This document shows, piece after piece, positions 7-35,025 of a stretch of DNA of 64,000 bases. Position 1 is the first letter of the stretch. The number at the start of each line of letters is the position of its first letter. This DNA is from an uncultured Pelagibacteraceae bacterium (GTDB lineage: Bacteria; Pseudomonadota; Alphaproteobacteria; Pelagibacterales; Pelagibacteraceae): positions 1 through 64,000 of the forward strand of contig CACNTN010000006.1 of the NCBI GenBank assembly GCA_902623395.1. Direction: 5' to 3'. The translations under genes were made by a program, and so were the position numbers. Below the pieces are notes generated by a model that saw only the letters and a program-made list of their open reading frames with translations, was not told the DNA's origin and searched no databases.

Positions 7-1227
7 GTGCAAAAATTTTTTCCAAATAAATTATCTTTAATTGTTTTATCATCAGCTTGTTGCGTGATTCTAATCTCAATGGGACTTAGACAAACTTTTG
101 GTTTATTTTTTGAGGCTTTTGAAAATGGTCTAGGGGTTACAAGAACTGAATTTGGTCTCGCGATAGGTATTCAAATGTTATTCTGGGGTTTTTTTGCTCC
201 TATATTTGGTGTCTTGGCAGATAAGTTTGGTGGAAATAAAGCTGTATTTTTAGGTTTTTTGATTTTTGCTTTGGGAATTTTCATGCTGTATTCAGGTCCA
301 AATACGGGAATTTACTTTCAAATAGCACTAGGTGTTCTGGTTGGTATTGCTTTAGGAGCTACCGCTATTGGGGTGCCAGTTTCAGAAGTTGGAAAACACT
401 TCCCAAACGAAACTAGAACTATTGCAACAGGCGTAGTAACTGCTGCAGCTTCAATAGGATATTTTTTATCTCCTTTGCTGACTAAATATAGCTTAGTGCA
501 ATATGATTGGGAAGATACTTTAAAATATTTCATGATTTTTATTTTTTTTGGACTGATGGTGTCTCTGTTTTTATTTCCAGCAAAAACATTAATTAATTCT
601 TCTCAGGCAGATAGAGATCAAACTTTTTTTTCTGCCCTAAAGGAAGCTTTTTCCCATAGAGGTTATGTGCTTTTAGTTTTAGGTTTTTTTGTTTGTGGTT
701 TTCAAATTACTTTAGTTGGAACACACATACCAGGCTACATGCAAGAAAGAGGTATGGCAGGTTGGTCTGCAACTATAATTTTAGCATTAATTGGTTTTTT
801 TAATATTTTTGGCACTTTAGGAATGGGATATCTTGGAACTAAATATAAGAAAAAAAATTTACTGAGTATTCTTTATTCATTAAGAGCAATTAGCATATGT
901 ATTTTTATTTTTTCACCACCCTCTATGTTAAATTCAATTATTTTTGGTATAACTTTTGGTTTATTGTGGCTGTCTACCGTTCCTCCAACTAATGGAATAG
1001 TCGCTCAAATATTTGGCACAAAATACTTGAGCACTTTATTCGGTATTGTCTTTTTATGTCATCAATTTGGAGCTTTTGCGGGCGCTTTTCTAGGAGGATA
1101 TTTTTTTGATAATTACGGAAGTTATGATTACGCATGGTATATGGCTATTGCCTTGTCTATTTTTGCTACAATTATTCATTACCCAATAAATGAAAGCAGG
1201 ATAGAACGTGTGGATAACACTATCTAG
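7..1227 (+). CDS. MFS transporter, OFA/monocarboxylate-like
   Basis: This 406-residue protein has the hydrophobic pattern of a 12-helix major facilitator carrier in the inner membrane. An N-terminal signal-anchor-like helix is followed by a loop resembling the MFS motif between helices 2 and 3 (FGVLADKFGG, about residues 68-77). The chosen start is GTG at position 7, because the first helix begins about ten residues later and no better ATG exists. Carriers of this type usually move monocarboxylates or similar small anions, but nothing in the sequence fixes the substrate. It stands alone, separated by 140 bases from the next gene, and the stop codon at bases 1-3 may end a gene outside the window. 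Confidence 0.85.
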   Translation: MQKFFPNKLSLIVLSSACCVILISMGLRQTFGLFFEAFENGLGVTRTEFGLAIGIQMLFWGFFAPIFGVLADKFGGNKAVFLGFLIFALGIFMLYSGPNTGIYFQIALGVLVGIALGATAIGVPVSEVGKHFPNETRTIATGVVTAAASIGYFLSPLLTKYSLVQYDWEDTLKYFMIFIFFGLMVSLFLFPAKTLINSSQADRDQTFFSALKEAFSHRGYVLLVLGFFVCGFQITLVGTHIPGYMQERGMAGWSATIILALIGFFNIFGTLGMGYLGTKYKKKNLLSILYSLRAISICIFIFSPPSMLNSIIFGITFGLLWLSTVPPTNGIVAQIFGTKYLSTLFGIVFLCHQFGAFAGAFLGGYFFDNYGSYDYAWYMAIALSIFATIIHYPINESRIERVDNTI

Positions 1228-1367
1228 AGTTGTATTTTGAGTCCTTAAGTGAATCAAAACTGAATCAAAACGTGAACATTTAAAACATTCAACTTAAAAT
1301 TGTGGATAATTTTTTATTTAATTAATCTTAAAATTTTAATAGTCTGACAATAACAAAAGGAGCAATA

Positions 1368-2039
1368 ATGTTTTCAAAAAAATTAGGCGCAAAATTAGAC
1401 AAATATCATTTATTAAAACACCCATTTTATGAAATTTATTGGAACGAGGGAAAGCTTAACAGAGAAATAATTAAAGATTATGCCGAGCAATATTATCAGC
1501 ATGTAAAAGCATTTCCTAGATACATCAGTGCAACACACTCTATTTGCGAAGATATAGAAAAAAGAAGAATACTTTTAGAAAATTTACAAGATGAAGAAAA
1601 TAAAGACGGTGATCATCCTAAATTATGGAAAAATTTTGCAAAGGCATTAGGTGCAGACGAAAAAGAAATTGAAACAGTAAAACTCGATTGGTTCACAAAA
1701 GATATGATTGAAAATTTTTTCTCTCAAGCAAGAAAATCATACGCAGAAGGTCTTGCATCTTTGTACACATACGAAAGACAAATACCTGAAATAGCGGAGA
1801 CTAAAATTCAAGGTTTAAAAAAATTTTATGGTGTCAAAACGAAAAAAGGTCTTGAATTTTTTGAGGCGCATAAATCTGCAGATATTATTCATAGAGCTGA
1901 ATGTGAAAAACTTTTAGATAATTTAACTGAAGAAGAACAAGAGAAAGCAGAAAAAGCTTCCTTGTTAACAGCTAGATATCTTTGGAATTTCTTAAGCGGC
2001 ATGACCTCTAAACACAAGCTTCATTCTATGGCAGCTTAA
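1368..2039 (+). CDS. CADD-family diiron/dimetal oxygenase-like protein, probable p-aminobenzoate synthase
   Basis: This 223-residue all-helical protein belongs to the TenA/PqqC-like haem-oxygenase fold. It closely resembles, from memory, the Chlamydia CADD protein that makes p-aminobenzoate for folate by consuming one of its own tyrosines. The stretch HPFY (Tyr21) matches the sacrificial tyrosine (Tyr27 in C. trachomatis). Lys146 in the TKIQGL segment matches Lys152. Candidate metal ligands are Glu76 or Glu77, His83, Glu136, His168, Asp172 and His175. A clear AGGAG ribosome site precedes the ATG. It lies 24 bases before the nucleotidylyltransferase gene and upstream of aprM, a coupling with no obvious metabolic reason. 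TenA thiaminase II is the main alternative; the conserved Tyr and Lys argue against it. Confidence 0.82.
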   Translation: MFSKKLGAKLDKYHLLKHPFYEIYWNEGKLNREIIKDYAEQYYQHVKAFPRYISATHSICEDIEKRRILLENLQDEENKDGDHPKLWKNFAKALGADEKEIETVKLDWFTKDMIENFFSQARKSYAEGLASLYTYERQIPEIAETKIQGLKKFYGVKTKKGLEFFEAHKSADIIHRAECEKLLDNLTEEEQEKAEKASLLTARYLWNFLSGMTSKHKLHSMAA

Positions 2040-2063: not shown

Positions 2064-2444
2064 ATGAAAAATGATAATCACGTATGGGATAATAAACATC
2101 CCACTGCCCAGATGCTAGGTCGTTGGCAACCGTGGCATGCTGGCCATCAAAAACTATTTGAAGAAACATTAAAAAAAACTGGACAGGTAAATATAATGGT
2201 TCGAGATGTAAAAGGTGTTGATGACAATCCGTTCGATTTTGAAACTGTTAAAAAAAATATTTTTGAGGCATTAAAAGATTACAAAAATAGAATTCAAGTC
2301 ACTTTAGTTCCTAATATAACTAATATTTGCTACGGAAGAGGAGTCGGCTATAAGATTGAAGAGATCGTTTTAGATGAGAAAATACAACAAATTTCAGCGA
2401 CTAAAATTAGAGCACAGATGAGAAAAGAGGGTAAGCTAAAATAG
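2064..2444 (+). CDS. Small HxGH-superfamily nucleotidylyltransferase
   Basis: This 126-residue protein carries the two signatures of the cytidylyl/adenylyltransferase superfamily. The HAGH motif (in GRWQPWHAGH, about residues 20-29) binds the nucleotide triphosphate, and ISATKIR (about residues 111-117) corresponds to the C-terminal IS.TxxR motif. It resembles the minimal nucleotidyltransferase domain found alone or fused to APS-kinase-like domains in marine bacteria and phages. The substrate is unknown. It sits 52 bases upstream of aprM on the same strand, so a role with adenylylated sulfur compounds is possible but inferred only from position. Coenzyme A or NAD adenylyltransferases share the motifs but are longer. 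Confidence 0.72.
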   Translation: MKNDNHVWDNKHPTAQMLGRWQPWHAGHQKLFEETLKKTGQVNIMVRDVKGVDDNPFDFETVKKNIFEALKDYKNRIQVTLVPNITNICYGRGVGYKIEEIVLDEKIQQISATKIRAQMRKEGKLK

Positions 2445-2496: not shown

Positions 2497-3291
2497 ATGT
2501 TAACTAATAATCCATTCTCTAATCTATCAGAAATAATACCAGCATTTGCAATGCAAGGATTTGTTATAGCCATGGCAGCTCTCACATTAATTGGTGTGTT
2601 GGTTGACATTAGGCACAAAAAAAATGTGAAATATTTTTTTGAGAACGCAAAAAAAGCCAAAAAAAATGCTCAGATAGAATTATCTACTGCAAAAAGAACT
2701 TCAGTTATTTTAAAAACTGTTGCACATGATATCGCAACAACATCAGAACTAGGATGGGGCAAAAGAAGATTGGCGCATGTTTTAGGCATGTATGGAACCA
2801 TTATTTTTTGGATTTGTTCAGCTATTTTAATTTTTTCTTATTCTTCTGTAGGTATTGAAACTCCATCAACTTTAACAGCTCTATGGCACATTGGAGCTAT
2901 TTTAACTTGTTTAGGTGGTTATTGGTTTTGGTTTTTTTTAAGAGTTGATGTTTCCGCAGAGGCACACCCTTGGTACAGGATTATAAAAGCAGATTTATTT
3001 GTTTTAGCTTTACTAGCTTGCGCAACATTTGGCTTAGCTTGGTCATATACGCAATACTCGGGAATGATTGGTCTTAGTTATTTATTTTTAGTTTTATTTA
3101 TTGTTTCAAATCTAATTTTATTTGGAGGTGTTTACTGGTCAAAATTTGCACATATGTTTTATAAACCTGGTGCAGCGATTCAAAAAAATCTAGCTGAAGC
3201 TGATGGATCTAGAGACAATTTGCCACCACCTGCTGATGCTCCGGAGCAATTTGGTCTAGGAATTAAAAGAGAACAACCGAAGCATTATTAG
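2497..3291 (+). CDS. aprM: AprM, membrane subunit associated with APS reductase
   Basis: This 264-residue protein has about five membrane helices (roughly residues 10-36, 93-120, 128-150, 164-186 and 192-213) and a proline-rich cytoplasmic tail. It lies directly upstream of aprB and aprA. In sulfur-oxidising bacteria that lack the Qmo complex, the gene at this position is aprM, proposed to pass electrons from AprBA to the quinone pool. Histidines in the helices (LAHVLG, ALWHIG) could serve as haem or quinone ligands. The assignment combines context and topology, since I see no diagnostic catalytic motif. The ATG lacks a strong ribosome site. Confidence 0.82.
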   Translation: MLTNNPFSNLSEIIPAFAMQGFVIAMAALTLIGVLVDIRHKKNVKYFFENAKKAKKNAQIELSTAKRTSVILKTVAHDIATTSELGWGKRRLAHVLGMYGTIIFWICSAILIFSYSSVGIETPSTLTALWHIGAILTCLGGYWFWFFLRVDVSAEAHPWYRIIKADLFVLALLACATFGLAWSYTQYSGMIGLSYLFLVLFIVSNLILFGGVYWSKFAHMFYKPGAAIQKNLAEADGSRDNLPPPADAPEQFGLGIKREQPKHY

Positions 3292-3331: not shown

Positions 3332-3802
3332 ATGTCAACTTTTGTATACATGACACGATGTGATGGCTGCGGCCACTGCGTTGATATATGTCCATCAGAT
3401 ATAATGCATATTGACGAGACAATTAGACGAGCAAAAAATATAGAACCTAATTTTTGCTGGGAATGTTATTCATGTGTGAAAGCTTGCCCAAATCATGCAA
3501 TAGATGTTCGAGGTTACGCTGATTTTGCTCCAATGGGACATAGCGTAAGAGTAAGAAGAGAAGAAGAAAAAGGAACTATTTCTTGGAGAATAAAATTTAG
3601 AAACGGAACTGAGAAAAACTTTGTATCACCAATCACAACCAAACCTTGGGGTAAATTTATTCCAAAACTTGCAGAGGAAGATAAACCAAATCAAGGAGAA
3701 ATAACTACACAAAGACTTTACACTGAACCAAAGGGTTTAAACATTGACGGCGACCTTCCAACTGTAAGCAAAGATTCATTTAAAAAAGGGGTTTACTACT
3801 AA
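3332..3802 (+). CDS. aprB: Adenylylsulfate reductase beta subunit (iron-sulfur)
   Basis: This 156-residue ferredoxin-like protein has two [4Fe-4S] cysteine sets: Cys10, Cys13, Cys16, Cys20 and Cys42, Cys45, Cys48, Cys52. This is the AprB pattern, and the length matches the family. It forms a cytoplasmic heterodimer with AprA and carries electrons between the FAD site and the membrane. An AAGGA ribosome site precedes the ATG. The stop codon TAA shares its last base with the aprA start (TAATG), implying translational coupling. Since no sulfate-reduction genes are nearby, the enzyme most likely runs oxidatively, from sulfite and AMP to APS. Confidence 0.95.
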   Translation: MSTFVYMTRCDGCGHCVDICPSDIMHIDETIRRAKNIEPNFCWECYSCVKACPNHAIDVRGYADFAPMGHSVRVRREEEKGTISWRIKFRNGTEKNFVSPITTKPWGKFIPKLAEEDKPNQGEITTQRLYTEPKGLNIDGDLPTVSKDSFKKGVYY

Positions 3803-5661
3803 TGGCTAACGTAAAAACTCACGTTGAGGAAAGTGATATTCTTATTATCGGCGGCGGAATGGCCGGCACAGGAGCTACATTTGAAGCTAGACATTGGGGA
3901 AGAGATCTAAAAATAGTTTGTGTTGAAAAAGCTAACATTGATAGAAGTGGTGCTGTAGCCCAAGGTCTTTATGCAATCAATTGTTATATGGGTATGCAGT
4001 GGAATGAAAACCAACCTGAAGATCATGTTAGATACGCACGAAATGATTTAATGGGAATGGTTAGAGAAGATTTAGGTTATGACATGGCTCGTCACGTAGA
4101 CTCTACAGTTCATATGTTTGATGAATGGGGTTTACCTATGATGAAGAATGAAAAAACTGGAAGATATTTAAGAGAAGGTAAATGGCAAATCATGATACAC
4201 GGTGAAAGCTATAAACCTATCGTTGCTGAAGCAGCAAAAAAATCTGCTAACAAAATTTATAACAGAATAATGATTACTCATCTTTTAATGGATGATGAAA
4301 AAGAAAATAGAATTGGTGGCGCAGTTGGTTTTAATATGAGAACTGGCGACTATCATGTTTTTAAAGCAAAGGCTGTAATTGTTGCAGCAGGCGGAGCTTC
4401 ACACATTTTTAAACCAAGAGCAGTTGGTGAAGGAATGGGAAGAACTTGGTACGCTCCTTGGAGTAACGGTTCTGCTTATGCACTTCCAATAGCTGTTGGT
4501 GCTAAAATGACTCAAATGGAAAATAGAATTGTTTTATGTAGATTTAAAGATGGCTATGGTCCGGTTGGAGCTTACTTCCTTCATTTAAAAACTTACACAC
4601 AAAATGCTAATGGTGAGAATTATGAAAAAAAATGGTACGAACAAACTAAATCATTAGTTGGAGAATATATTGATCATCATCCAACACCTACATGTTTAAG
4701 AAATCATGCTTTTATTCAAGAAGTACAAGCTGGAGGTGGACCAATACACATGGTGACTAAAGAAGCCTTCCAAGATCCTCATTTAGAAACTGTAGGCTGG
4801 GAAAACTTTTTAGGAATGACAGTCGGTCAGGCTGTTGTATGGGCTTCACAAAATATTGATCCAAAATACACAAACCCTGAGCTTACAACTTCTGAACCAT
4901 ATGTAATGGGATCACATGCAACATGTTCTGGAGCTTGGGTAAGTGGACCAGAAGATTTATCACCTCCAGAATATTTCTGGGGCTACAACAGAATGTTAAC
5001 CGTTGATGGATTATTTGGAGCAGGCGACACTGTAGGCGGAAGTGCACATAAATTTTCCTCTGGATCTTTTACTGAAGGAAGATTAGCCGCAAAAGCCGCT
5101 GTTAAATATATCGAAGATAAAAAAGCAGATGGAATTAAAGTAAGCGATAAACAATATAAAGATTTAAAAGAAGTTATATATAAACCTCTAGAAAATTACA
5201 CAGTAGGTAGAAATGAAATAACAGGTGGAACCGTATCTCCAAGTTATATTTCTCCTATTCAAGGGCTACAAAGACTTCAAAGAATTATGGATGAGTATGT
5301 TGGGGGAATAGCTACAAATTATATGACTAATGAGAACATGCTTAATAGAGGTCTAGAATTATTAAAATGGTTAGAAGAAGATTTGGAAAATGTTGGTGCT
5401 GAGGATTACCACCAACTTATGAGAGCATGGGAATTAAAACACAGAACTATTACTTCGCAATGTGTAACAGAGCATACTAAATTTAGAGAAGAAACTAGAT
5501 GGCCAGGTTATTATTATAGAGGTGACCATCTTAAACTTGATGATGATAATTGGCATTGTTTAACTGTCTCAAGACGTGACCCTAAGACTAAAAAGTTTAC
5601 AATGGAGAAAGTTCCGGTTTATCACATTGTAGACGAAAAGAAGGAAAAGAAAGCTTCATAA
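3802..5661 (+). CDS. aprA: Adenylylsulfate reductase alpha subunit (FAD)
   Basis: This 619-residue flavoprotein has an N-terminal FAD Rossmann motif (IIGGGMAGTGATFEA, from about residue 15) and the fumarate-reductase-type fold of AprA. Segments such as GAGDTVGG and HKFSSGSFTEGR, which hold the flavin, are present, and the length is right for the family. It catalyses interconversion of APS with sulfite and AMP. The surrounding sulfonate genes all release sulfite, which supports an oxidative, detoxifying and energy-yielding role. Electrons would leave via AprB and AprM. The gene is translationally coupled to aprB, and six bases separate it from the next small gene. I found no ATP sulfurylase gene in the window to convert APS to ATP and sulfate. 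Confidence 0.96.
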   Translation: MANVKTHVEESDILIIGGGMAGTGATFEARHWGRDLKIVCVEKANIDRSGAVAQGLYAINCYMGMQWNENQPEDHVRYARNDLMGMVREDLGYDMARHVDSTVHMFDEWGLPMMKNEKTGRYLREGKWQIMIHGESYKPIVAEAAKKSANKIYNRIMITHLLMDDEKENRIGGAVGFNMRTGDYHVFKAKAVIVAAGGASHIFKPRAVGEGMGRTWYAPWSNGSAYALPIAVGAKMTQMENRIVLCRFKDGYGPVGAYFLHLKTYTQNANGENYEKKWYEQTKSLVGEYIDHHPTPTCLRNHAFIQEVQAGGGPIHMVTKEAFQDPHLETVGWENFLGMTVGQAVVWASQNIDPKYTNPELTTSEPYVMGSHATCSGAWVSGPEDLSPPEYFWGYNRMLTVDGLFGAGDTVGGSAHKFSSGSFTEGRLAAKAAVKYIEDKKADGIKVSDKQYKDLKEVIYKPLENYTVGRNEITGGTVSPSYISPIQGLQRLQRIMDEYVGGIATNYMTNENMLNRGLELLKWLEEDLENVGAEDYHQLMRAWELKHRTITSQCVTEHTKFREETRWPGYYYRGDHLKLDDDNWHCLTVSRRDPKTKKFTMEKVPVYHIVDEKKEKKAS

Positions 5662-8698: not shown

Positions 8699-10480
8699 AT
8701 GGCTAAAATGACAACAGAAGAAGCTTTTGTAAAAGTTTTACAAATGCATGGTATTGAACATGCTTTCGGAATTATTGGTTCTGCATTCATGCCAATCTCA
8801 GATATTTTTCCAGATGCCGGTATCACCTTTTGGGATGTTGCTCATGAAACAAACGGCGGTTTGATAGCTGATGGCTACACTAGATCGACCGGTAAAATAT
8901 CAATGGTAATTGCACAAAATGGTCCAGGTATCACTGGTTTAGTAACCCCGATTAAGACTGCGTACTGGAATCATACACCTCTTCTATTAGTTACACCTCA
9001 AGCTGCAAATAAAACAATGGGTCAAGGAGGATTTCAAGAGGTAGAACAAATGAATTTATTTAAAGATATGGTCTGTTATCAAGAAGAAGTAAGAGACCCA
9101 TCGAGAATGGCAGAAGTTTTAAACAGAGTGATTGAAAAAGCGATTAGAGGATCAGCACCTGCACAAATTAATGTTCCTAGAGATTACTGGACTCAAGTAA
9201 TTGATATTGAACTACCACCTATTGTCAGATTAGAAAGACAAGCTGGCGGTGCAGCTGCAATAGATGAAGCGGCAAAATTACTTTCGAACGCGAAGTTTCC
9301 TGTAATTTTATCAGGTGCAGGTGTTGTAATTGGCGGAGCAATTCAAGACTGTGTTAAACTAGCTGAAAAATTAGACTCACCAGTATGTTCTGGTTACCAA
9401 CACAATGATAGTTTTCCAGGAAGCCACCCTTTGGCTGTAGGTCCTTTAGGATATAACGGTTCTAAGGCCGCAATGGAGTTGATCTCAAAAGCTGATGTGG
9501 TTCTTGCACTTGGAACAAGGTTAAATCCATTTTCAACTTTACCAGGTTATGGAATTGATTATTGGCCTAAGAAAGCAAAAATCATCCAAGTTGATATGAA
9601 TTCAGACAGAATAGGCTTGACCAAAAAAGTAACCGTTGGAATTTGTGGTGATGCAAAATTAGTTGCCCAACAATTATTAAGTAAATTATCACCAAAAGCC
9701 GGTGATAACGATAGACAGAAAAGAAAAGATTTAGTTCACCAAACAAAATCGGCTTGGCTTCAAAAATTATCTAGCTTAGATCATGAGGAAGATGATCCAG
9801 GAACAGTTTGGAATAAAGAGTCAAGAGAAAGAGATAAAGATAGAATGTCACCACGTCAAGCTTGGAGAGCAATTCAGGCAGGAATGCCCGAAGATGTAAT
9901 TATTTCAAGTGATATTGGAAATAACTGTGCAATAGGAAATGCTTATCCTACTTTTGAAAAAGGAAGAAAATATTTAGCACCAGGTTTATTTGGTCCTTGT
10001 GGCTACGGGTTTCCATCTATTTTAGGAGCTAAAATTGGTTGCCCGGAAACACCTGTAATTGGTTTTGCAGGTGACGGAGCATTTGGAATAAGCATGAACG
10101 AAATGAGTTCATGCGCACGTGAAGAATGGCCAGCTATTTCAATGGTTATATTCAGAAATTATCAATGGGGTGCAGAGAAGAGAAACACTACATTGTGGTT
10201 TGATAATAATTTTATAGGAACAGAATTAGATCCAGAATTAAGTTACGCAAAAGTCGCTAATGCTTGTGGTTTAAAAGGAGTTACAGTTAAAACTATGGAA
10301 GAAACCACAAAAGCAATTAAACAGTCATGTGAAGATCAAAAAAAAGGTATCACAACATTTATTGAGGTAATACTAAACCAAGAATTAGGTGAGCCGTTTA
10401 GAAGAGATGCAATGAAAAAACCAGTGAAAGTGGCTGGGATTAGAAAAGAGGATATGAAACCTCAAAAAAGCCTAAATTAA
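8699..10480 (+). CDS. xsc: Sulfoacetaldehyde acetyltransferase
   Basis: This 593-residue thiamine-diphosphate enzyme converts sulfoacetaldehyde and phosphate to acetyl phosphate and sulfite in the cytoplasm. It has the three-domain ThDP layout. The catalytic glutamate lies in the N-terminal domain (about VAHETNGG), and the cofactor motif begins at Gly458-Asp459-Gly460 and runs on through the NYQWGAEKRN region. The sequence around DYWTQVIDIELPP and the C-terminal GEPFRRDAMKKP segment look like Xsc rather than acetolactate synthase. Downstream products are handled by the Pta-like enzyme at 22783-23691 and by AprBA. A strong AGGAG ribosome site precedes the ATG. Confidence 0.95.
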   Translation: MAKMTTEEAFVKVLQMHGIEHAFGIIGSAFMPISDIFPDAGITFWDVAHETNGGLIADGYTRSTGKISMVIAQNGPGITGLVTPIKTAYWNHTPLLLVTPQAANKTMGQGGFQEVEQMNLFKDMVCYQEEVRDPSRMAEVLNRVIEKAIRGSAPAQINVPRDYWTQVIDIELPPIVRLERQAGGAAAIDEAAKLLSNAKFPVILSGAGVVIGGAIQDCVKLAEKLDSPVCSGYQHNDSFPGSHPLAVGPLGYNGSKAAMELISKADVVLALGTRLNPFSTLPGYGIDYWPKKAKIIQVDMNSDRIGLTKKVTVGICGDAKLVAQQLLSKLSPKAGDNDRQKRKDLVHQTKSAWLQKLSSLDHEEDDPGTVWNKESRERDKDRMSPRQAWRAIQAGMPEDVIISSDIGNNCAIGNAYPTFEKGRKYLAPGLFGPCGYGFPSILGAKIGCPETPVIGFAGDGAFGISMNEMSSCAREEWPAISMVIFRNYQWGAEKRNTTLWFDNNFIGTELDPELSYAKVANACGLKGVTVKTMEETTKAIKQSCEDQKKGITTFIEVILNQELGEPFRRDAMKKPVKVAGIRKEDMKPQKSLN

Positions 10481-34948: not shown

Positions 34949-35025
34949 GGCGAGGTAGCTCAGTTGGTTAGAGCACAGGACTCATAAGCCTGGGGTCGGC
35001 GGTTCGAATCCGCCCCTCGCTACCA
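34949..35025 (+). tRNA. tRNA-Met (anticodon CAT, elongator type)
   Basis: The 77 bases fold into a full cloverleaf: acceptor stem GGCGAGG with CCTCGCT, D-loop with AGCTCAGTTGGTTAGAGC, anticodon loop CTCATAA with CAT, T-arm GGCGGTTCGAATCCGCC, and an encoded 3' CCA. The D and anticodon arms resemble elongator tRNA-Met rather than initiator or tRNA-Ile2, though a lysidine-modified tRNA-Ile cannot be strictly excluded. It marks the left border of the polysaccharide island. Confidence 0.93.

Follow-up and report, generated by a model that had tools for sequence, protein, structure and literature searches.

Self-sacrificing synthesis of p-aminobenzoate (pABA) is established for two related proteins, CADD (CT610) of Chlamydia trachomatis and NePabS (NE1434) of Nitrosomonas europaea (PMC11965152). 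N. europaea is a free-living ammonia oxidiser whose NE1434 gene rescues a pabABC deletion strain of E. coli (PMC11965152). A 2007 folate survey links CT610 to folate genes and describes the pab genes as missing in chlamydiae (PMC1971073). The conventional route is made up of three multi-turnover enzymes of unrelated families, PabB, PabA and PabC (aminodeoxychorismate synthase and lyase), which start from chorismate. Here we describe a gene of the CADD type at positions 1368-2039, on the forward strand, of a 64-kb stretch of DNA (the window) from a 1.03-Mb assembly of the abundant marine SAR11 group that is 90.2% complete and comes in 24 contigs. As judged from sequence comparisons, this gene very probably encodes a self-sacrificing pABA synthase, which in this SAR11 lineage stands in for the PabA/PabB/PabC route.

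The 223-residue product of the gene resembles both known synthases. It shares with NePabS the family, the sacrificed tyrosine and lysine, a Tyr/Tyr/Trp set, a free-living host and a phenylalanine at the F177 position (Phe164 here); with CADD it shares the family, the metal-ligand set and a tyrosine at the Y141 position (Tyr135 here). It differs from NePabS in having Tyr135 at the F148 position and, throughout the window's group, one extra residue after the sacrificed tyrosine, and from CADD in having Phe164 in place of Y170 and in its free-living marine host. The loci differ as well, for NE1434 adjoins a putative glyA (PMC11965152), whereas the window gene lies in a slot that related SAR11 genomes use for pabB-pabA-pabC (pabBAC), the genes whose predicted product is the same.

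The initial annotation had presented the gene as a CADD-type case in a free-living bacterium, next to apr genes. The placement holds, but Nitrosomonas already provides a free-living example of CADD-type synthesis, and the apr linkage is no functional evidence. What is new is the exchange at the SAR11 slot, the natural Tyr135/Phe164 pair, and the additional residue next to the tyrosine that is sacrificed. The portion of a 2026 review accessible to us (PMC13108848) names no SAR11 case of a self-sacrificing pABA synthase, and we found no such report for SAR11 or Pelagibacter in the open-licence literature (broader searches were judged by title, and subscription literature lay outside the scope).

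Family membership and predicted catalytic residues

The open reading frame at 1368-2039 was confirmed, and its product scores 298.8 bits against the model TIGR04305 (fol_rel_CADD, CADD family putative folate metabolism protein), which has a cut-off of 200. It also matches the solved structures 1rcw (CT610/CADD; E 2.3e-45), 8va9 (E 5.7e-45) and 9pj4 (E 1.1e-43), the last two being 4-aminobenzoate synthases, over nearly its full length, with alignments that span residues 7-211 or 3-214 of 223. Membership of the CADD/PabS family, as first proposed for this gene, is thus confirmed at the sequence level. The NePabS peptides printed in PMC11965152 agree with 9pj4 save for one residue that we noticed; because of this mismatch we treat 9pj4 only as a close NePabS homologue. 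It has an extra loop that is absent from the window protein. A scan of named genomes returned 227 relatives, of which the best 80 all belong to SAR11/Pelagibacteraceae and are 85-93% identical to the window protein. Purifying selection on the gene is strong, with dN/dS of 0.02-0.067 between the window and 16 loci from the best 80, synonymous sites being near saturation.

We aligned 112 SAR11 rows, comprising the window, its own copy in the assembly (L001) and 110 other loci, with 107 distinct sequences among them. (G denotes a genome, G000 being the window's assembly, L a locus, and g1-g14 the genus labels used in this analysis.) Structure alignment places Tyr21 (codon at 1428..1430) at the position of the sacrificed tyrosine (Y27 in CADD, Y25 in NePabS) and Lys146 (codon at 1803..1805) at that of the amino donor (K152 in CADD, K159 in NePabS); both are invariant in the 112 rows and are predicted to act in the same way here. 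The metal ligands were located by placing on the structure alignment the CADD residue numbers that we take to be correct. The resulting set of E76, H83, E136, H168, D172 and H175 is likewise invariant, and its three histidines and three carboxylates give the ligand count of the CADD/PabS family (PMC11965152). The positions picked out in the initial annotation, namely Tyr21, Lys146, Glu136, His168, Asp172 and His175, were all confirmed. Three further aromatic residues, Y38, Y42 and W87, are also invariant; these are the equivalents of Y41, Y45 and W99, which are essential or important in NePabS (PMC11965152).

In every one of the 112 rows, Tyr135 and Phe164 occupy the positions that set the metal preference of NePabS, F148 and F177 (Y141 and Y170 in CADD). 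This is the pairing found in the NePabS F148Y single variant, which is similarly active with Fe/Fe and Mn/Fe (PMC11965152), and it leads us to predict a metal-flexible SAR11 enzyme, active with Fe/Fe and with Mn/Fe alike.

By homology with CADD and NePabS we infer both the metals of the dimetal site and catalysis with a single turnover. The site formed by the six ligands would activate O2, and a radical would travel by way of aromatic residues, for which Y135, W87 and Y42 are candidates, to Tyr21. Y38 matches a tyrosine whose essential role in NePabS is unexplained (PMC11965152). The side chain of Tyr21 would be cleaved at the bond between its alpha and beta carbons, leaving a glycine; the ring would be oxidised, with O2-derived oxygen going into the carboxylate, and Lys146 would donate the amino group. 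Each protein would then yield at most one pABA, to be consumed by FolP.

A chromosomal slot shared with pabBAC

In the window the CADD gene is bordered on the left by a gene for an MFS transporter (7..1227, forward strand; PF07690) and on the right, past one small gene, by a membrane-protein gene (2497..3291, forward strand; distant QmoC match) that precedes aprB and aprA and that we take to be aprM. Among 118 SAR11 genomes, 21 have pab loci (see below), and we inspected ten of these: five full loci from g4, that of G097 (also g4), and one each from g6, g10, g11 and g14. Nine of the ten sit at the window's CADD slot, beside the MFS gene and/or aprMBA. In eight of the nine, aprM-aprB-aprA comes after pabB-pabA-pabC (L136 has a cut pabB), and in the g4 and g14 loci a small HIT-type gene, named by eye, separates pabC from aprM. 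The MFS gene lies 5' of pabB in all eight but L136, whose contig begins inside pabB; in L133 a kinase gene and a nucleotidyltransferase-like (NT) gene intervene. The ninth locus, in G097, reads metB-like/MFS/pabB as far as the contig end.

The exchange is cleanest between L187 (g8) and L188 (g3) on the CADD side, both with the order metB-like/MFS/kinase/NT/CADD/aprM/aprB/aprA, and L133 (g10) on the pab side, with metB-like/MFS/kinase/NT/pabB/pabA/pabC/aprM/aprB/aprA. The window's group has a slightly different order from L187 and L188, MFS-CADD-NT-aprM, and the MFS gene is found upstream of CADD in 92 of 111 CADD loci (L001-L111). The pabBAC cassette measures about 2.45 kb (~2,450 bp) against 0.67 kb (672 bp) for the CADD gene, so that the CADD version needs 1.8 kb less DNA. 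CADD and pabBAC are thus exchanged in place, and self-sacrificing pABA synthesis is therefore by far the best explanation for this gene.

The two systems also exclude each other across the family. The 118 genomes, the window's own included, were searched with profiles and queries for CADD, PabB, FolP, TrpG/PabA, PabC and FolK. Because no TIGR00553 match passes the PabB cut-off, PabB was told apart from TrpE by frame length and neighbours. Frames of about 470-500 aa were classed as TrpE, and all 15 such loci that were viewed in context adjoin TrpG; shorter frames (387-418 aa), together with those that are partial or interrupted, were classed as PabB, and a second PabA-like amidotransferase lies alongside in 20 of 21. 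On this basis 75 genomes have CADD only (74 above the cut-off, with a fragment in G033), 21 have PabB only, none has both and 22 have neither. All PabB genomes but one have PabA and PabC too (20 of 21), the contig of G097 stopping inside pabB. Among the 46 genomes with completeness of at least 90, contamination being unfiltered, the counts are 25 with CADD, 18 with PabB, none with both and three with neither; completeness is 59-88% for the other 19 genomes in which neither was found. Fisher's test gives p = 1e-11 for the exclusion, a value that ignores the non-independence of genomes within a genus.

The PabC query that was positive in 20 of the 118 genomes was also run on another 50 genomes with CADD, taken from the best 80 relatives (0.6-1.1 Mb, completeness not stated), and found PabC in none of them. 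FolP is present in all 45 good-quality genomes and FolK in 44 of the 45; genomes with CADD and genomes with PabB therefore both have use for pABA. The three genomes with completeness of at least 90 and neither system are G069, G042 and G019. G069 (g4) was rejected as a genome lacking both routes, its contig stopping 730 bases past aprM, just beyond the HIT-type gene found in front of aprM in g4 loci of the pabBAC type. G042 is likewise limited by its contig, aprM beginning 596 bases into a contig of 6.2 kb. G005 holds, beside a full CADD, a second and weak CADD-like match (C1:107051-107596; 38 bits), probably another member of the superfamily.

The initial annotation had suggested that this genome may make folate without a PabAB route, and had proposed a genome-wide search for pabA, pabB and pabC. 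In the window's assembly, the search for chorismate-binding enzymes (PF00425) gave a single match, TrpE, which passes the model trpE_most (559.6 against 517.7 bits) and lies in the order trpE-trpG-trpD-trpC (the last two identified by eye). The sole TrpG/PabA match above the cut-off lies in the same trp operon; four others are weaker, one of them scoring 73.6 bits in a 431-aa frame. In this assembly (90% complete) PabB was not found, and a SAR11 PabC query gave no match, while folK is present. Together with the exclusion pattern and the shared slot, these results support the suggestion.

Competing explanations

The fold of the window protein is shared with PqqC-, TenA- and BesC-like oxidases, and the gene could encode an enzyme of this kind with another small-molecule substrate, its likeness to pABA synthases being of superfamily level only. 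The broad Pfam models do match the protein (PF14518 with 83.3 bits and PF03070, the broad TENA_THI-4/PQQC model, with 80 bits), but it fails the specific ones: it reaches 52.6 bits where the PqqC model (TIGR02111) requires 240 and 21.2 where that of the BesC-type lyase (NF042919) requires 500, and no NCBIfam TenA/thiaminase model matches at E up to 0.01. As the TIGR04305 cut-off is exceeded by almost 100 bits, the sacrificed tyrosine and the lysine are invariant, and CADD alternates with pabBAC at one locus, such an oxidase appears very improbable. Another idea is that the protein does make pABA, but by ordinary multi-turnover catalysis on an added substrate, with the tyrosine and lysine acting catalytically and unconsumed. 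The second tyrosine beside Tyr21 in the window's group (Tyr24) would fit this idea, while the invariance in SAR11 of the very residues that are sacrificed in CADD and NePabS speaks against it; we give it a small chance of being right.

The surroundings of the gene offer a different explanation, in which it would belong to the sulfur metabolism of its neighbours, such as sulfite/adenylyl-sulfate (APS) oxidation through AprBA or the use of sulfoacetaldehyde through Xsc, and have no link to folate. The gene indeed adjoins aprM-aprB-aprA and lies near xsc. The apr genes named in the initial annotation are genuine, encoding the beta subunit (aprB, 3332..3802; TIGR02060, 188.6 bits, cut-off 135.65) and alpha subunit (aprA, 3802..5661; TIGR02061, 994.8 bits, cut-off 641.75) of adenylyl-sulfate reductase on the forward strand, and apr genes occur in 39 of the 111 CADD loci. 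In 41 of the 111, however, a TauE-type gene comes next, with no apr detected between (apr was searched for only in the fetched loci, and loci limited by contig or fetch are included). In g5, g7, g9 and g12, all eight loci inspected show CADD next to rseP- and HU-type genes (names by eye), with a serC-type gene on its other side in seven (L082, L084, L086, L087, L088, L105 and L186, not L089). The apr slot of the inspected PabB genomes is filled by pabBAC. Since CADD persists where apr is absent from the locus, and sits elsewhere in other genera, apr is a neighbour of the slot and not a partner of the gene. We rejected CADD as a sulfur-pathway gene on these tallies, and regard the apr neighbourhood as incidental; a role in sulfur metabolism is scarcely credible.

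Several observations weigh against self-sacrificing pABA synthesis as the replacement of PabABC. One is the extra residue beside the sacrificed tyrosine. The window and all 80 best loci (L002-L081; 82 rows with L001) carry a one-residue insertion between Tyr21 and Trp25, where the residue is tyrosine in 76 of the 82 (Tyr24 in the window, codon at 1437..1439); the insertion is absent from all 30 loci L082-L111. An AlphaFold prediction made from 22 sequences (the window and 21 homologues 85-93% identical to it) is all-helical, but with a mean pLDDT of 52.1 and a pTM of 0.41 it was too poor for a check of the geometry against the seven-helix heme-oxygenase-like fold of the family, in which the tyrosine and lysine lie about 14 angstrom from the metals, and was set aside. 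As the genome is 90% complete, the absence of pab genes is no proof by itself.

The folP gene of the window's assembly (L129:3883-5946, contig C2) is truncated and fused to glmM: only 155 of the 244 positions of the pterin-binding domain are matched before the frame continues into a protein of the phosphoglucomutase/GlmM type, for a total of 687 aa, while two relatives of the same genus have the two as separate proteins (354 and 447 aa in G018, 352 and 443 aa in G004). This may be a fault of assembly or amplification, or a real deletion; if the truncation is real, the pathway would be broken downstream. G019 (g5), a 96% complete genome with folP and folK, has neither CADD nor a PabB that we could find; this is unexplained, and either an assembly gap or true pABA auxotrophy would account for it. 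The pab locus of G029 (g6) is off the slot, as pabB-pabA-pabC-folP on a short contig. Moreover, the exclusion pattern as a whole rests on only about two to three evolutionary switches.

A last point comes from outside SAR11. In a 289-genome sample of the class, TIGR04305 has a match at E up to 0.001 in 80 genomes but passes its cut-off in only nine, two of these being SAR11. In four of the other seven no chorismate-binding enzyme was found; the remaining three hold one chorismate-binding protein of uncertain role. These three proteins look anthranilate-synthase-like, two of them lie beside trp-type genes (by eye), and none reaches a curated cut-off.

History of the exchange, genomic surroundings and significance

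A tree of rpoB from 27 genomes separates a group with g5, g7, g9 and g12, in which CADD is at the rseP/HU place, from the rest, which mostly have the MFS/apr slot. On this tree the fewest changes between CADD and Pab number three; by our reasoning two suffice if the pab contig of G029 is foreign. This contig (C29, 4.6 kb, L135) may be foreign DNA: the genome shows 4% contamination and a second folP, and the contig is divergent from other SAR11, with a PabC 37% identical to that of G026. In a tree of aprM, G010 (g10, with pabBAC) and G008 (g8, with CADD) are sisters with support of 100/98, the rpoB tree leaving their order open. Contamination of the G010 genome is 8%, but the layout of its slot, with kinase and NT, is the one seen in g3 and g8 and not that of g4.

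When compared with seven alphaproteobacterial sequences from outside SAR11, the CADD proteins of SAR11 fall into a single group (94/98), and genera largely stay together, with the exception of a g2 sequence (L108) that stands beside g1 (93/91). In a PabA+PabC tree, g10 and g14 are nearer to most g4 sequences than is G093, itself from g4, which suggests that the cassette was transferred within SAR11. In the single-contig g4 genome G078, the pabB frame of L132 (C1:448656-449537) holds stop codons and the adjoining pabA and pabC are open; early decay of the route and sequencing error are both possible. In G250, one of the seven alphaproteobacteria outside SAR11 that pass the TIGR04305 cut-off, CADD is found in the order folP-like, dihydrofolate-reductase-like, CADD, gamma-glutamyl-ligase-like (L179:4005-7237; the second and fourth named by eye), an arrangement that resembles the chlamydial folate cluster.

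In the window, a ribosome-binding-site-like AGGAG was read off the sequence at 1358..1362, five bases 5' of the ATG of the CADD gene. The small gene between CADD and aprM (2064..2444, forward strand, 126 aa) is the NT-like gene, with weak matches of the NMN-adenylyltransferase type, all below cut-off. We recognised no folate genes among the nearest neighbours of CADD in the window, and a tRNA at 34949-35022 was the sole match when the window was searched with Rfam for riboswitches near the gene. Viral contigs scanned for CADD copies gave 35 pattern matches and no true relative; as both of the short patterns used derive from conserved SAR11 stretches, divergent viral copies would escape it.

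Near the apr genes the window also encodes xsc, sulfoacetaldehyde acetyltransferase (8699-10480; TIGR03457, 967 bits, cut-off 676.4), consistent with use of taurine-type sulfonates. In several SAR11 genera an NT-like protein of 124-135 aa follows an APS-kinase-like protein of 135 aa, 5' of apr (L133:5325-6106, L107:2244-3020 and L185:4471-5247; the window locus has the NT alone, at 2064-2444). In g6 a single 258-aa frame that starts with the kinase is seemingly a kinase-NT fusion. It is possible that kinase and NT are an unrecognised pair of APS/sulfate enzymes.

Somewhat more likely than not is a broader picture, in which most SAR11 lineages would make folate by spending one protein for each pABA. 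The pABA step would occupy a swappable slot where pabB-pabA-pabC and CADD have replaced each other at least two to three times with the flanks kept. The enzyme would be naturally metal-flexible (Fe/Fe or Mn/Fe), and its use affordable to very small cells that grow slowly and have a low demand for folate. At micromolar folate, a cell whose volume is a few hundredths of a cubic micrometre would contain no more than hundreds of folate molecules, and hundreds of CADD copies per generation would therefore suffice. The question of cost is one of a 223-residue protein with 313 nitrogen atoms per pABA, set against the saving in DNA.

The alternation with pabBAC at the same locus provides a genetic argument, one that does not draw on residue conservation, for the CADD family doing all that PabABC does. 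It also offers matched relatives with which experiments can be made. The natural combination of Tyr135 and Phe164 tests the rule of metal choice proposed from NePabS mutants. If most SAR11 lineages do make pABA by a suicide protein, this odd chemistry would be a mainstream process of the ocean.
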